Assembly: GCA_017885365.1 (NCBI GenBank)
Contig: JAFNGD010000274.1
Location: 2,961 to 10,395 of the forward strand
Origin: Nitrospirota bacterium
GTDB lineage: Bacteria > Nitrospirota > UBA9217
Length of the DNA: 7,435 nucleotides
Direction: 5' to 3'
Of this stretch, positions 114 through 7,435 are shown piece after piece; the stretch's first letter is position 1; the number at the start of each line of letters is the position of its first letter. The position numbers were made by a program, and so were the translations under genes. The notes beneath the pieces were generated by a model. The model saw nothing but the letters and a program-made list of their open reading frames with translations. It ran no database searches and was not told where the DNA came from.

Positions 114-1355
114 TTATGATGTTCCCGACCCTTGCCCCTGAAGTACATTCGGTCCGCCGCCATTCACCCGCCGGAGCAGAACAAGCCCGATAATAAAGAA
201 GGCGGCGATGGAAAGAATGGCAGGCCGCTGGCTACCGAAGGCCGCTGACACTTGGCCGAAGACCAGGGGGCCGATGACCGCGGAGGACTTCCCGACGAGG
301 GAATAAACGCCAAAGTACTCGGCCTCCTTGCTCTCGGGGATGAACTGCGTGTAGAAGGCGCGGGTGCCCGCCTGGACCGAGCCGAGCCCGAGCCCCGCGG
401 TACAGGCGATGGCCCAGAAGTGGGTCTTGTTCTGGACGAAGAACGCTGATACGGCGACCAGCGACCAGAGCAGGAGCGAAAGGGTAACGACCTTCTTGGG
501 ACCCCACGTGTCGGTCGGCTTCGAGAGAAAGAAAGCGCCGATAAGCGCCGTGACCTGCACCACAAGGTACAGGCCGATGAGCTCGCCCTGTCCGAAGGCA
601 AAGGTCGTCGCGGCCAGGCTGCTTGAGAATACAATGACCGTGTTCACGCCGTCTTCATATATGAGGTAGGAAAGGAGGAACTTCCGGGGCTCCTTCCGCG
701 ACCAGATCTCCCGCAGGGTCGTCACCGCTTTCTGAATGCCGATACTTCCTGCCTGCGAAGCCGTCACGCCGGTCTGTCTGTCCCGCGGCAGGAACAGGAA
801 GGCGGGGAGGGAAAAGAGCGCAAAGAACGCCGCAACCATGAGCCAGATACCCTCGAACCTACCGGCCTTAGCCAGCGGAAGCGCGAACAGGAGCGACAGG
901 ATGGACCCCGCATATCCCACACTGAATCCCCAGCCTGAGACACGGCCCTGGTACTCCACGGGAGCGATCTGGGGAAGGAAGGAGTTGTAGAACACCAGCC
1001 CGCCTTCCATACCGATGTTCGCGACGACGATGAGGATGAACCCGAGGAGCGACGCGCCGGGTGTCAACAGGGAGAGCGCCGCAACGGCCGCGACACAGAT
1101 AGAGGTATAGAAGGCGAGAAGTCTTTTCCGGAGCCCCGCGTAGTCGGCAATGCCGCCCAGGAAGGGGGAGGATAGGGAGACGAACAACATGCTGACCGAG
1201 ATGGCTGTTCCCCACCAGAGGTCTCCGTTGCCGCGTTCGTTTCCCACGATGCGGTTGATATAGTATACCTGGAACACGACGGCCGCGATGACCGCCGAGT
1301 AGCTCGAGTTCGCGAAGTCAAAGAGGCACCAGGAGAGGATCTGCTTCCTGTTCAT
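114..1355 (-). CDS. MFS transporter, UMF1 / Atg22-like family
   Basis: A polytopic inner-membrane protein of 413 residues, the usual size for this family, with about 12 hydrophobic segments. Family hallmarks are visible: an N-terminal DFANSSYSAVI segment (residues 13-23), a loop resembling MFS motif A with D71, G74 and R76-K77-R78, and the FYNSFLPQI (122-130) and GRVSGWGFSVGYAGS (137-151) region typical of UMF1/Atg22 proteins. The family is thought to move small solutes, with amino acid efflux known for yeast Atg22; the bacterial substrate is unknown and I infer none. The frame stays open upstream to an ATG at 1470-1472. That would add 39 polar residues with no family resemblance, so I prefer the ATG at 1353-1355, where the conserved N terminus begins. 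No strong Shine-Dalgarno precedes any of the candidate starts. The gene stands alone, transcribed away from everything else in the window, and ends in TAA. Confidence 0.88.
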   Translation of the reverse strand: MNRKQILSWCLFDFANSSYSAVIAAVVFQVYYINRIVGNERGNGDLWWGTAISVSMLFVSLSSPFLGGIADYAGLRKRLLAFYTSICVAAVAALSLLTPGASLLGFILIVVANIGMEGGLVFYNSFLPQIAPVEYQGRVSGWGFSVGYAGSILSLLFALPLAKAGRFEGIWLMVAAFFALFSLPAFLFLPRDRQTGVTASQAGSIGIQKAVTTLREIWSRKEPRKFLLSYLIYEDGVNTVIVFSSSLAATTFAFGQGELIGLYLVVQVTALIGAFFLSKPTDTWGPKKVVTLSLLLWSLVAVSAFFVQNKTHFWAIACTAGLGLGSVQAGTRAFYTQFIPESKEAEYFGVYSLVGKSSAVIGPLVFGQVSAAFGSQRPAILSIAAFFIIGLVLLRRVNGGGPNVLQGQGSGTS

Positions 1356-2080
1356 GGGCCACATTATGGGATAATTGATGCATGATTGCAAGGGGGATGT
1401 GGTTGTTCGTTTTGCTGTCATGGGCATGAAGAACAATTTTAGACTCTCATGAGCGGCTGAAATAAATTGCATTTAGTAACAAACAAATACCCTTAATATA
1501 CCCCGCCAGAAGTCGATTATCGCAAAGGGGAATAACGCCATCCTCCGGGAACTAGGAACTAATTCCTCGATCAGTAAGAATTTATTCCTATGGCAAGAAG
1601 GGGATTCTCTGCTATAGTGAACATGCGCAGAGGGACCCTGGTGGCGCCGGACGAGCATACCCCGGTGGAGGCTTGACGGATGCACACGTGGTCATAGGCT
1701 TCTGCCGGCACCGGCACGAGAGGAAGGACCGGAGAGCACCTGACCAGGTGCCCTTCGCATCATCCGCTGTCTATCACGTTACCCTATTGATGAAGGAGGC
1801 GAACAATGAAGGAAGGGAACCGAGTTCTTCCATAATCGGCGCACGATTTGTCGTCTTGCTCATCACGAAACTTTACGATGGTGTTCGCACAAGACAAGCC
1901 GGCAGACCTTCCAGGGCAAGATGCAAGACCTTCGACCATATACCTGCCGCATCTACTTCCACACCGGATGGTTCATCGGGCTATGAATAGTATGAGATGT
2001 CCATAACCAATTATCGGTGAAATGGCCATTATGACCCGGTGAAATAGCTGCTGTCACGAGATCGCTCAATCATAATAGAT
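1356..2080. other. Long intergenic stretch without a convincing gene
   Basis: I see no gene here that I would defend. Open frames at 1473-1685 (minus) and 1673-1990 (plus, TTG start) have low-complexity, Arg/Ser-rich translations without recognisable motifs. A good Shine-Dalgarno (AAGGAGGC, near 1794-1801) precedes an ATG at 1806, but that frame closes after nine codons. Two compact palindromes are present: TGCCGG-CA-CCGGCA (1703-1716) and GCACCTG-AC-CAGGTGC (1736-1751). The 1790-1985 stretch could be a decayed coding region, because other frames across it give peptide-like sequence, but this is weak. Any promoter of the minus-strand transporter should lie at the left end of the stretch; I cannot identify it. 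Confidence 0.5.
2015..2045 (+). repeat. Two 9-bp direct repeats 22 bp apart, possible activator sites
   Basis: CGGTGAAAT occurs at 2015-2023 and again at 2037-2045. A spacing of 22 bp is about two helical turns, so both copies face the same side of the DNA. They lie roughly 165-190 bp upstream of the start site predicted from the sigma-54 promoter at 2181-2196. That is within the range where sigma-54 activator proteins commonly bind. A role as an activator site is inference. Confidence 0.35.
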
Positions 2081-2245: not shown

Positions 2246-2342
2246 GAGTTTATCATTAAGAATTAAGAAAGAGTTAAAATAATTAATGTCTTTAATGACG
2301 GGCGATGGTCTACTCACAACAGGTTTGAAAGAGAGGCTATGT

Positions 2343-2528
2343 ATGGAAAGTGTAATGAATATTCTTTACAGTCTTTCACCGAGTGGTAATTGTCCCGTAT
2401 GTAAAAAAAACGTGAAGTACGTTGCAGAAGAATATACCATATTCAAATCCAAGCCGGTGTTGATATATAAAGATAGGATTGAAACGAAATGCCCCAATTG
2501 TAACCGCCCTCTTGTTGATAAATACTAG
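2343..2528 (+). CDS. Small two-CxxC (zinc-ribbon-like) hypothetical protein
   Basis: A 61-residue soluble protein with two Cys pairs, C17-P-V-C20 and C50-P-N-C53, separated by 29 residues. Two CxxC knuckles of the form CPxC suggest a single structural metal site (zinc ribbon or rubredoxin-like), but I do not recognise the family. The frame is also open from ATG 2286, which would add 19 residues. I prefer 2343 because GAGAGG lies six bases upstream, whereas the 2286 start has only a distant, weak AGAAAGAG. The gene appears monocistronic, with the sigma-54 promoter upstream and a strong terminator 42 bp downstream. Its base composition is AT-richer than the cytochrome and transporter. It could be a small regulator or adaptor expressed under a stress or nutrient signal. 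That is inference only. Confidence 0.65.
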   Translation: MESVMNILYSLSPSGNCPVCKKNVKYVAEEYTIFKSKPVLIYKDRIETKCPNCNRPLVDKY

Positions 2529-3458: not shown

Positions 3459-3464
3459 AAGGAG
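3459..3464 (+). promoter_or_regulatory. Ribosome binding site of the cytochrome
   Basis: AAGGAG, with nine bases to the ATG at 3474. The frame is also open back to ATG 3441, but that start has no Shine-Dalgarno and would put 11 polar residues before the signal peptide. This site fixes the start at 3474. Confidence 0.85.
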
Positions 3465-3473
3465 AAAATTACC

Positions 3474-6400
3474 ATGGGTAAAATAAAACTTAGGCATCTG
3501 ATGACAGTCCTGACTGCTGTCATCCTCTTGGTCGGTGTTCCGGCTGCCTTTGCCGCCCACATCGATGTGCCCCTGAAGGACGCTTCGGGCGCTCCCGTCA
3601 CAGGAACGACGCCGTACAGCCCGAAAGTGACCTGCGGCGGCTGCCATTTTGATTGCACGACCGGTTTGCCCAGCGATGTCCGGTCAACGTGGTGCACAAG
3701 CGGTCTTCAGAAGAATTGCGCCACCGATGCATGCCCTGACTACCAGTATGGCTCATCGACGGTCACCAAGAACCAGGGCATTATCAAGTCCGATGGGACG
3801 GTCACGTTCGTCAACTATACGGTAAGCGTGCCGACCCACGGTGCTTCGACGGGCAAACACAGCACGCAAGGTAGGAATGAAGGGCTCGTGGCTATGCAGC
3901 GGACCATATGGTCTGCACCGGCCACGATCAGCAGCCCGGGAATGTACGGCCGCTACTGACCACCCTCTAACCGCCAGTTGGCGGCAAAACCTGTTCTCGG
4001 ATCCACACAAGACGATCTTTTGAAAGAAGTAGAAATGAGCACCTCGAATTTTGGCAAATCTTGCGGCGTCTGCCATGTAGGCGGTGGTCAGATGGAGTAC
4101 GACAGCGACATGAAGGCCTTTGGCGATCCCTCCTCCACGGACGCAAGCAGTCTCTTGACCTACAGGATCAACCGGATCGAGGACGGCAGCATCGTTCCCG
4201 GTTCTATCGTATCAACCTCCACAAATTCAAACCGTGAGCTCTATGGCGACAACAAGGCGGAAGTTGACTGCCTGATGTGCCATATGAACGGTCTCAAGAC
4301 CGGCGCTGCATGGTACAAATCCCTGGGCTGCGGTCCCGCGAAGCCCGTAGGACCTGCGAACGATCCCACGTGCAGCGGCCCCGAGTTCGCCGCGGTGGAC
4401 AACTCGGGCGGCTTCTACGACTCCTTCAACAGGAACATCGCGGTCTCGCTGGGTTACTTCAAGCAGGCTGCCTCGGCGGGTATCGGCGCTCTGATCAATC
4501 TTCTGGACGGCACAATGAGCAATGTGCCTTCCTCGGTCTCGGGCGGAAAGATCGCTGCTGCGCCGAACAGCGAGAACTGCGCCATGTGCCATGCACGGAC
4601 CAATTCCGACAGCATCGGTCTTCCGATGGAAGCAGCTCAGTACGGCGGCATGGTGACGGGCTTCGGAAACTTCTTCCGGATGACCGAGGCCGGCAAGGCG
4701 TTCGATTTCGACAAGATCGCCACAGACGGCTCGTGTTCCGGCGACTGCTCAAATACGTCTCTGTGGAACGAGTTCGGTTGCAAGACCGGCATGGGCAAGA
4801 GGGCCCAGAGGTCAGGTGTGGGCACCCAGGACCGGTTCGGGTTCGGGATCTGCCTGGGCTGCGCCACGTTCAACGCCATGAGCGGGGACATGACCACTGG
4901 CTGGTTCGGCAACGGTGTCTGCGCGATGCCGAGCGTACAGGCTGCGTGCAACACCGCAGCCGGCACTACCCTGCAGGGCAGCGCAGGACAATGGATGGGT
5001 ATTCTCGAAAATCCCATGACGATGCTGCCGAAGAAGGTCGTGGGCAAGATGTCCGATACCGATGTCCATGATGCTGCAGGCATGAAGTGCTCTACCTGTC
5101 ACTATGCGCTCAGCGGCGATGGCCCTGCAGCACGGACCGTCGGGTCCGGTGCAAATCTCTATACGATTCCGCAGACCACCGGCATGAACAGGATGGACCA
5201 CCAGATGGCCCAGGGCTGGAGCACGCTGGAGAAAGCGAATGACTCCCTTGATGGAACGGTCACGTGCGAAAGCTGCCATACCGAACGCACGCATCCCAAC
5301 GCGGGAGCTGCTCCGAATCCGGGCCACATCGGCCTCCCGGCCCTGCACCTCGAAAGGATCGATTGCAGGACCTGCCACATTCCCGCTGTGTACTCGTCGC
5401 CCGGCCGCTTGCTGTTCAGGGATTGGACCGCGGGTGCGTACCGCCAGACCGACGGCTCCAACGGCAATGCCAACCACTTTGACTTTGCTTTCAATTTCAT
5501 GGAAGGCTCGGCAATGCCGATGGCCCCGATGAAGGTCTGGATCAAAGTGCAGGAGCCTGCGGGCGATGTATACAAAATCGCCCCCGGGCTTTCCTCCCTG
5601 CTCCCGGTGTGGTTCGGCAAGATGAATGCGGCCAACGCCTCGCCTTTGCCGATGTACACGCGGGATGTCACCGCAGCCGCAGCACTTGTTGCAGCAAATC
5701 ATCCCGAACTGGGCATCCGGCTGAACGGAACGAACGAACATCCGTTGTTCCAGGGATTCCAGCTCACGGATCCAATGAAGATCGAATCAGCAACAAAGAT
5801 CGCCCTGATGCGAACAGAGCTCCAGGGAACAGGCGGAGGCCTGGCGACACATAATGCCTATGCCAACCCGCAACTGAACCTGCAGCCCTTCTTCTTCGAC
5901 CCGTCGCACGGCATCACGTCCAAGACAGTGGCCCTCGGCGCGAACGGCTGCACGGACTGCCACTCGACCACCAGCCAGTTCTTTAACGGTTCGAAGGACC
6001 TGCTGAAAAACGGCATGATGGCGATGGCCGATTACGACTGCGGCGGCGACGACACGCATCAGCTTGATGCCGCAAATTACGGCAATACCCCCGGCGGGTG
6101 GCCCAATTCCGACGGCGGTATGTGTGCTATGTTCGATAATCCCGCCATGGGCGGAAACGGCAGCGGCTTCTGTGATCCGGCCGAACTGCAGGCCTGCAAG
6201 ACCTATATCGGAAGCAATCTCTTCCAGCAGTTCGGCATGCCCGGCGATATCGCCACGGCGTTCCCGATCGACGGCATCGACATGATGCAGATGCAGGCGA
6301 TCCAGGAAGGCGCCACGGCGGCAGGCTGCAATCCGATCTACTCGTTCTTCGGATTCCCGAATGCAGGCCGCATGACCGCTCCGGGTTCGATGACGAACGG

Positions 6401-7435
6401 CACCGGACCCACGAACGGCTGTATCGCGGCAGACTACTACAGCCGCGACGAGATCAGGAAGCACTATTCGAAGAACCTGCAGCAGGTCAACGACGGCACC
6501 GGGAACAAGGTCTTCGGCAGGTTCAATAAGCCCGCCACCGGGTCTCTCGCGATCGGGGGCACGCCGGCACTGGCGGCCTACGACCTCGGAACGACCTGCG
6601 TAACCAATCGGCAGACCGGTGCAACGGGACCCTGCACGGACGGCGGCTATATCAGCACCACGGTGACGGAGAAGCAGCTCCTGGGCTACAATGACGCTGA
6701 TTTCGCGAAACTGACGAATTTCAGCACCATGCAGGCGACTGACGCATGTACAAACTGCCATACGCAAAGCCTGACATCGATGAACCATCCGTCAGGCACA
6801 GGAACACCGTCGTCGTGCGCAGCCTGCCATTTGGCCGGCACACCAGCAATGCAGGTCCATGTGGGAGTACCGATCAATGTTCAGACTGCCTGCGGTCAGT
6901 GCCACGGCGGTTCAGCAGGAACAGGCGGCACGACAAATGGCGCTCCGTACTTCATCGCGGCCCAGCTAGATCAGTATGCAAACAACATCCACGGCGTTTC
7001 GCCTGTTGCCCGCTTCACCTGGTCAACGTCGTCGACCGTGGACTATCTGGTGCTGTATGATGCATCAGCCACAACCTGCCCGACCGGCGGCACGTGCACC
7101 TACTCCTGGAGCACGGGTGAGACCGGCATAACTACGTCTCATCCGTTCACCAGCAACGCAACAACGACAGTGACGTTGACGGTCACGAGCAGCCTGGGCG
7201 GCAGCGATAGTACTTCACTCGCTGTCACGCCGAAGTACGTGGCCGGCAATCCGACGTCACTTGATGGTAGCTTATCGGTGGTGACGACCGGCTTTACGTC
7301 GACCGTCGGCTGGACGGTTTCCGGCGGTGTCGCACCGTATACCATCAGGGCAAACTGGGGCGATGGCCAAATCAACACAATAAGCTCGGCACCAGCTGGT
7401 GCCGGCTCCCTGGGCCATACCTACGTCACTGCCGG
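3474..7435 (+). CDS. Giant secreted multiheme cytochrome c with PKD repeats; in-frame TGA (candidate selenoprotein); 3' partial
   Basis: Likely an exported or outer-surface electron-transfer protein; 1320 residues lie in the window and no stop is reached. Residues 1-27 are a Sec signal peptide (K3/K5/R7, hydrophobic core, AFA cleavage before A28). Eleven CxxCH heme motifs begin at residues 54, 197, 266, 369, 539, 598, 631, 826, 1092, 1115 and 1140, all in one frame. CLGCA at 460 looks like a heme site lacking its His. Residues 60-90 and 850-1080 hold extra non-heme Cys. PKD/Ig-like repeats fill about 1175-1255 and 1262 onward (WGDG at 1295-1298, HTY at 1315). Codon 162 is TGA; the frame continues unshifted as PPSNRQLAAK into the second heme motif. 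Trp is encoded by TGG and no other TGA occurs, so general recoding is unlikely. Selenocysteine is my preferred reading; a nonsense mutation or sequence error is the alternative. Starting separately at ATG 4035 would give a cytochrome with no signal peptide and a weak Shine-Dalgarno. Confidence 0.85.
3957..3959 (+). other. In-frame TGA, candidate selenocysteine codon
   Basis: TGA follows codons for GMYGRY and is followed in the same frame by codons for PPSNRQL, with 25 sense codons before the next Met (4035). Both sides read as one protein. The upstream part carries the signal peptide and first heme; the downstream part carries the other ten. Cys (TGC/TGT) is one base away from TGA, as expected for a Cys/Sec exchange. 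Trp (TGG) is also one base away, so mutation to stop is possible. Confidence 0.6.
3971..3984 (+). promoter_or_regulatory. SECIS-like hairpin 11 nt after the TGA
   Basis: CCGCC (3971-3975), loop AGTT (3976-3979), GGCGG (3980-3984): a perfect 5-bp stem. Eleven bases separate the TGA from the stem and 16 separate it from the loop. Known bacterial SECIS elements, bound by SelB, have a short stem, a G among the first two loop bases (GU in E. coli fdhF) and a loop roughly 16-37 nt from the UGA. All three hold here. The bulged U of the E. coli element is not evident. Short GC-rich hairpins also occur by chance, so the position is the main evidence. Confidence 0.55.

Follow-up and report, generated by a model that had tools for sequence, protein, structure and literature searches.

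The stretch of DNA analysed here (7,435 nucleotides of contig JAFNGD010000274.1 from a Nitrospirota bacterium; hereafter the window, at its full length) carries a gene for a multiheme c-type cytochrome whose reading frame is crossed by a TGA codon. Translation of positions 3474-7434 gives 1,320 residues and one stop only, the TGA at 3957-3959 (codon 162), as the original prediction had it. The layout of the frame is also as described there, in that one of the 11 CXXCH heme motifs lies upstream of the TGA and ten lie downstream, and all 15 Trp codons are TGG, with no TGA in the frame besides codon 162. The frame is open through the end of the window. A database protein (P0002), in which the TTG at 3978 is taken as the start of the same protein, extends it to ~1,524 residues and has carboxypeptidase-regulatory-like domains after the PKD domain. 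The window protein also scores over the cut-off of Pfam PF22113 (31.9 versus 30). We consider it highly likely, judging from the comparisons given below, that this is one selenoprotein gene and that it encodes an exported multiheme c-type cytochrome. That the TGA is decoded as selenocysteine (Sec), which had been proposed as a candidate, appears almost certain in view of Cys or TGA at the corresponding site of homologs, a hairpin of the selenocysteine insertion sequence (SECIS) type, and tRNA-Sec and SelB in the genomes of relatives.

Table 1. Features of the window, with residue numbers referring to the cytochrome
Feature	Positions	Strand	Basis
Multiheme c-type cytochrome gene with in-frame Sec codon; leaves the window	3474..7435	+	translation, P0002
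AAGGAG, probable ribosome binding site for ATG 3474	3459..3464	+	direct reading of sequence
Probable signal peptide, residues 1-27, cleavage after AFA	3474..3554	+	by eye
Heme motif 1, CGGCH, residue 54	3633..3647	+	motif search
TGA, almost certainly read as selenocysteine, residue 162	3957..3959	+	frame, homologs, genome loci
SECIS-type hairpin CCGCC-AGUU-GGCGG	3971..3984	+	fold -9.4 kcal/mol, family conservation
Heme motif 2, CGVCH, residue 197	4062..4076	+	motif search
Heme motifs 3 to 8, residues 266, 369, 539, 598, 631, 826	4269..5963	+	motif search
Eight-heme core resembling octaheme tetrathionate reductase (OTR), model residues 1-814	3555..5996	+	structural match, profile comparison
Lys442 (GMGKR), candidate counterpart of OTR active-site lysine	4797..4799	+	alignment
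Heme motifs 9 to 11, residues 1092, 1115, 1140	6747..6905	+	motif search
PKD domain PF18911	6996..7217	+	Pfam match
MFS / Atg22-like transporter	114-1472	-	over Pfam cut-offs
80-residue open reading frame with CPVC and CPNC pairs, zinc-ribbon-like	2286-2528		no Pfam match above cut-off

Scoring of 7,992 candidates from a large protein set yielded at least 80 homologs. Among the 80 listed, 12 cover site 162, with Cys in 11 and Ser in one (the distant P0081); 66 start at query residues 163-210, just past the site, and two start far downstream. The called start in the window and in at least some homologs is the TTG of the QL codons, which falls within the hairpin described below. Since 66 of the listed homologs begin right behind the site, the pattern of starts is, on these alignments, that of a family in which a recoded TGA truncates the members, and gene callers do split the gene as had been anticipated. 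These starts could also be taken at face value, with the TGA terminating a small exported mono-heme protein and translational coupling giving another from TTG 3978 or ATG 4035; a conserved-operon option of this kind was left open by Fujita et al. 2007 (PMC1914089) for ExtKL, a Sec-containing cytochrome discussed below. We regard two genes as very improbable, however, because the 11 Cys homologs and the one with Ser run continuously across the site, Cys is encoded there in 16 genome sequences, and no signal peptide could be recognized by eye on the second piece. Moreover, the TTG start called in the window falls inside the SECIS-type hairpin, and this hairpin is conserved beyond codon constraint in TGA copies and not in Cys copies (see below).

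A scan of genome contigs with the window found two loci (L001 and L002). The first lies in Citrifermentans bremense R1 and has the TGA in the context DGMYGKW-TGA-PPSS and, downstream, a hairpin whose loop is AGTT as in the window. As this member belongs to a named isolate, its decoding as Sec can be put to a direct test. We searched 395 genomes from the phylum of this isolate, which we take to be Desulfobacterota, with a profile of hemes 1-3, and 85 of them matched. Among the matches listed, every stop-containing row has one TGA and neither TAA nor TAG. With frames split at TAA and TAG, and 9 duplicates of 109 rows removed, the 112 loci gave 100 distinct sequences, in which the site codon is TGA in 62, Cys in 16, Ser in nine, Leu in three, Val in three, Gln in two, and Ala, Phe, Gly, Met and Trp once each. 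When every stop was read through (five of the 112 loci, L002, L095, L104, L107 and L108, having no row at the site), 99 distinct sequences likewise had TGA in 62, with no TAA or TAG at the site and no further stop in the matched stretches. The recurrence of the same TGA in so many genomes, together with the long open frames that flank it on both sides, makes a sequencing error or pseudogene mutation a next to negligible explanation.

The hairpin downstream of the window UGA, with a loop that begins 16 nt past this codon, agrees in loop, stem, G, spacing and energy with the bacterial SECIS (bSECIS) model given in PMC13188914. A C-AG-N-N-G loop is present in all 63 TGA copies (window counted), starting 16 nt after the UGA in 46 and 22 nt after it in 17, and in eight of 38 copies without TGA. 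Codon-preserving shuffles indicated that the downstream RNA is stabler than expected in TGA copies (mean z score -1.85; 48 of 63 below -1), in contrast to Cys copies (+0.28; one of 16) and to copies with other residues (-0.09; two of 13), with Ser copies showing a partial signal (-0.94; four of nine). A stricter automatic hairpin rule was passed by 54 of the 63 TGA copies, two of 16 Cys copies, two of nine Ser copies and two of 13 others. On these comparisons, the hairpin is kept beyond codon constraint in TGA copies, unlike in Cys copies. The stem also covaries: in 35 of 39 distinct hairpins (the four with five-base loops being set aside), two inner pairs swap between C-G, G-C and A-U or U-A. 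The covariation score of 0.295 compares with 0.083 for shuffles and with no more than 0.094 on sliding, although relatedness of the sequences inflates such scores. Rfam found no SECIS or other family above its gathering score in the window, and returned two chance-level rows.

The hairpin also bears on whether a suppressor tRNA might place an ordinary amino acid, such as Cys or Trp, at the UGA. Because Cys is the usual alternative residue, the alignment would be compatible with a suppressor that inserts Cys, but this would leave unexplained the hairpin at SECIS spacing in every TGA copy and the tRNA-Sec and SelB of host genomes; in addition, the Trp codons of the window are TGG. We therefore think such a reading very unlikely. 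The machinery itself, for which the original prediction had suggested a search, was looked for in 80 of the 85 host genomes (the weak-hit genomes G071, G159, G240, G294 and G303 being left out). A tRNA-Sec was matched in all 80, six of them only at 47-50 bit, a level at which control genomes also match, and SelB was above the cut-off in 78. In G035, which has a Ser copy, SelB was below the cut-off.

Several observations nevertheless weigh against decoding as Sec. The fold of the window's own hairpin is by itself unexceptional (z score -1.5 to -1.7), and the structure differs when a longer piece is folded; because this single fold does not stand out, it is the family that carries the case for a SECIS. 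The expectation that homologs would have Cys or another TGA at position 162 holds for most of them, but not as a strict rule, since nine of the 100 distinct sequences have Ser and 13 have other residues. One genome, G084, has a TGA copy and no SelB match at the threshold used. Finally, SelB is also above the cut-off in 68 of 80 non-host genomes of the same phylum, and being this common in non-hosts, the machinery is consistent with Sec but weak evidence when taken alone.

The distribution of residues at the site was also mapped on a quick tree (77 rows, site masked, long branches). The Sec label changes at least seven times, six of these changes being forced by strongly supported branches, so that Sec, Cys and Ser interchange; Ser and other residues sit mainly on separate branches. 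The window groups with ten Cys proteins, a selection effect that arises because TGA-bearing database relatives are truncated and hence outside the tree. Two genome loci (L015 and L031) have TCA (Ser) at the site and yet an intact eight-pair hairpin with an AGTT loop at SECIS spacing, which is likely, as far as sequence can tell, a fossil of recent Sec loss. The Sec-to-Cys and Sec-to-Ser changes, two of them with the hairpin retained, constitute a natural experiment on the gain and loss of Sec.

The eight-heme core of the protein is very probably a distant homolog of OTR, a link that was obtained from a structural model combined with profile comparison. The only significant Protein Data Bank (PDB) match of the model is 1SP3, the OTR of Shewanella oneidensis, whose eight-heme fold was found in the core, and comparison of the core profile with OTR gave a match of 99.7%, with eight hemes in identical order. 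Sequence searches of the PDB with full alignments returned nothing beyond PKD domains of the collagenase type and weak single-heme matches, and those with single relatives were uninformative. Established cytochrome models respond weakly: the window protein scores 24.3 bits against TIGR04315 (cut-off 375), the best of ten members 54.4 bits, and no tested member reaches the curated cut-off of an NCBIfam cytochrome-family model. Similarity to TIGR04314 goes up to 42 bits (cut-off 250), and TIGR03507, which describes MtrC/OmcA decaheme outer-membrane cytochromes, is not matched by the window and reaches 32 bits in one member (cut-off 209).

The OTR model found a match in 112 of the 395 genomes, over the cut-off in 68, and many of these rows have one TGA. 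Of 29 OTR loci, 13 have NNF-U (TGA) and 16 have NNF-C at the site between hemes 1 and 2. By eye, two types of hairpin follow the NNF-U TGA among the OTR loci L141-L170 (for example L143, L147 and L148). The Sec of the window family lies in the same heme 1 to heme 2 interval in which OTRs have a conserved Cys or Sec. However, its motif, GMYGRY-U-PPSN, is ~35 residues before heme 2 and that of OTR ~10, and the window protein is far longer and has additional hemes and putative surface domains. Intermediate families have a Cys 20-45 residues before heme 2. Profile alignments, masked or unmasked and also via these intermediate families, did not bring this Sec and the Cys of OTR into one column; since the columns do not align, we do not claim identity of the two residues. 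This limits the relation with OTR: on the alignments, a shared interval of the same fold holds, and it does not follow that the residue is the same.

Other conserved positions in the core concern the heme ligands. The ligand of the OTR active-site heme is presumably a lysine, to which Lys442, invariant in 13 aligned sequences, is the candidate counterpart; Lys columns after heme 4 pair with OTR in the profile alignment, but for the wider family rather than for Lys442 exactly. In 61 eight-heme cores (39 of the 100 sequences being left out), just six His columns outside the heme motifs are conserved at 85% or above, so at least two hemes have no universally conserved His partner.

The relation with OTR offers a specific hypothesis for the use of selenium. 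SelB and tRNA-Sec would decode the UGA as Sec, directed by the downstream hairpin, to give an exported cytochrome comprising the OTR-like core, three more hemes, and PKD and carboxypeptidase-regulatory-like domains that probably lie at the cell surface. In the mechanism that we find best supported, the Sec selenolate would sit beside the catalytic heme of the core and attack or bind an oxidised substrate (tetrathionate, polysulfide, or some other compound of a chalcogen or metalloid), and the heme chain would supply the electrons that turn the Sec over. In some relatives, this chain is probably fed via an outer-membrane conduit: 3 of 20 neighbourhoods examined have genes for a beta-barrel-like protein and a 12-heme cytochrome with a lipoprotein-type signal, followed by the Sec cytochrome. 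The beta-barrel-like protein alone occurs in two more loci; this assignment was made by eye, from a signal peptide and a C-terminal aromatic residue, with no family match.

A catalytic role for Sec is, in our estimation, just under an even bet. Alternatively, Sec may be real and not act as a nucleophile: it may ligate a heme axially, serve as a structural redox switch, or bind a metalloid, for example arsenic. The hemes that have no universally conserved His partner favour such a role, as do two loci (L123 and L132) in which short Sec octahemes adjoin genes for an ACR3 arsenite pump and an ArsP-type permease (annotated as such on L132, and on L123 by BLAST clustering). On the other hand, the OTR relatives that conserve a Cys or Sec in the corresponding interval act as reductases of tetrathionate, nitrite and hydroxylamine (PMC6449678), and a Sec without chemistry in a surface conduit would be costly. 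We therefore hold a non-catalytic role to be tentative, and clearly short of an even chance. An unlikely but more specific proposal is that, in an electron conduit at the cell surface, a catalytic heme of the OTR type has Sec162 as its distal ligand or direct chemical partner. The protein would then be an extracellular selenoenzyme that passes respiratory electrons to chalcogen or metalloid compounds, and the OTR fold would have gained Sec at two sequence positions beside one heme.

The original prediction regarded a Sec multiheme cytochrome as unusual, but there are precedents. One is ExtKL of Geobacter (GSU2937-2936, NF040886), likewise a Sec multiheme cytochrome with a single in-frame TGA, from a phylum known for extracellular electron transfer (PMC1914089, PMC5877670). 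It differs in that its five hemes all precede the TGA and that, in the accessible passages of Fujita et al. 2007 (PMC1914089), where it was proposed as a five-heme TGA cytochrome, it is reported without Cys homologs or an identifiable SECIS. NF040886 is absent from the NCBIfam matches of the window, of 12 aligned members and of 10 further members. The other precedent is an OTR-family selenoprotein that the table of a 2026 review, which also has ExtKL, takes from GenBank annotation with no motif given in the available excerpt; the nearest TIGR04315 selenoprotein named there is WP_331457571.1. The window family is not recognizable in the part of that table accessible to us. In the open-licence PMC literature, we found no Sec octaheme or Sec extracellular cytochrome beyond ExtKL and the rows of the review, which is not proof of absence. 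MmcA of methanogens (TIGR04314) is also an OTR-related surface electron conduit, but it has seven hemes, and the available text on it does not mention Sec (PMC11024163). From its sequences, the window family would thus appear to be a new variant within Sec cytochromes and OTR-like octahemes, wide and mis-annotated. Extracellular electron transfer would gain a broad, apparently uncatalogued selenoprotein family, whose members are often truncated by gene callers, with loss of heme 1, the Sec site and the signal peptide.

Some further features of gene context were seen. At one locus (L064:1246-3822), the Sec octaheme core is part of a fusion with a cytochrome b of the formate dehydrogenase gamma type (136 bits, cut-off 116). 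Near the gene within the window, just the MFS-type transporter and the zinc-ribbon-like reading frame of Table 1 were seen. Upstream of the gene are two tandem-like copies of a ~70-base block with internal inverted repeats, which are 92-93% identical (2970-2998/3056-3084 and 2997-3035/3085-3123).
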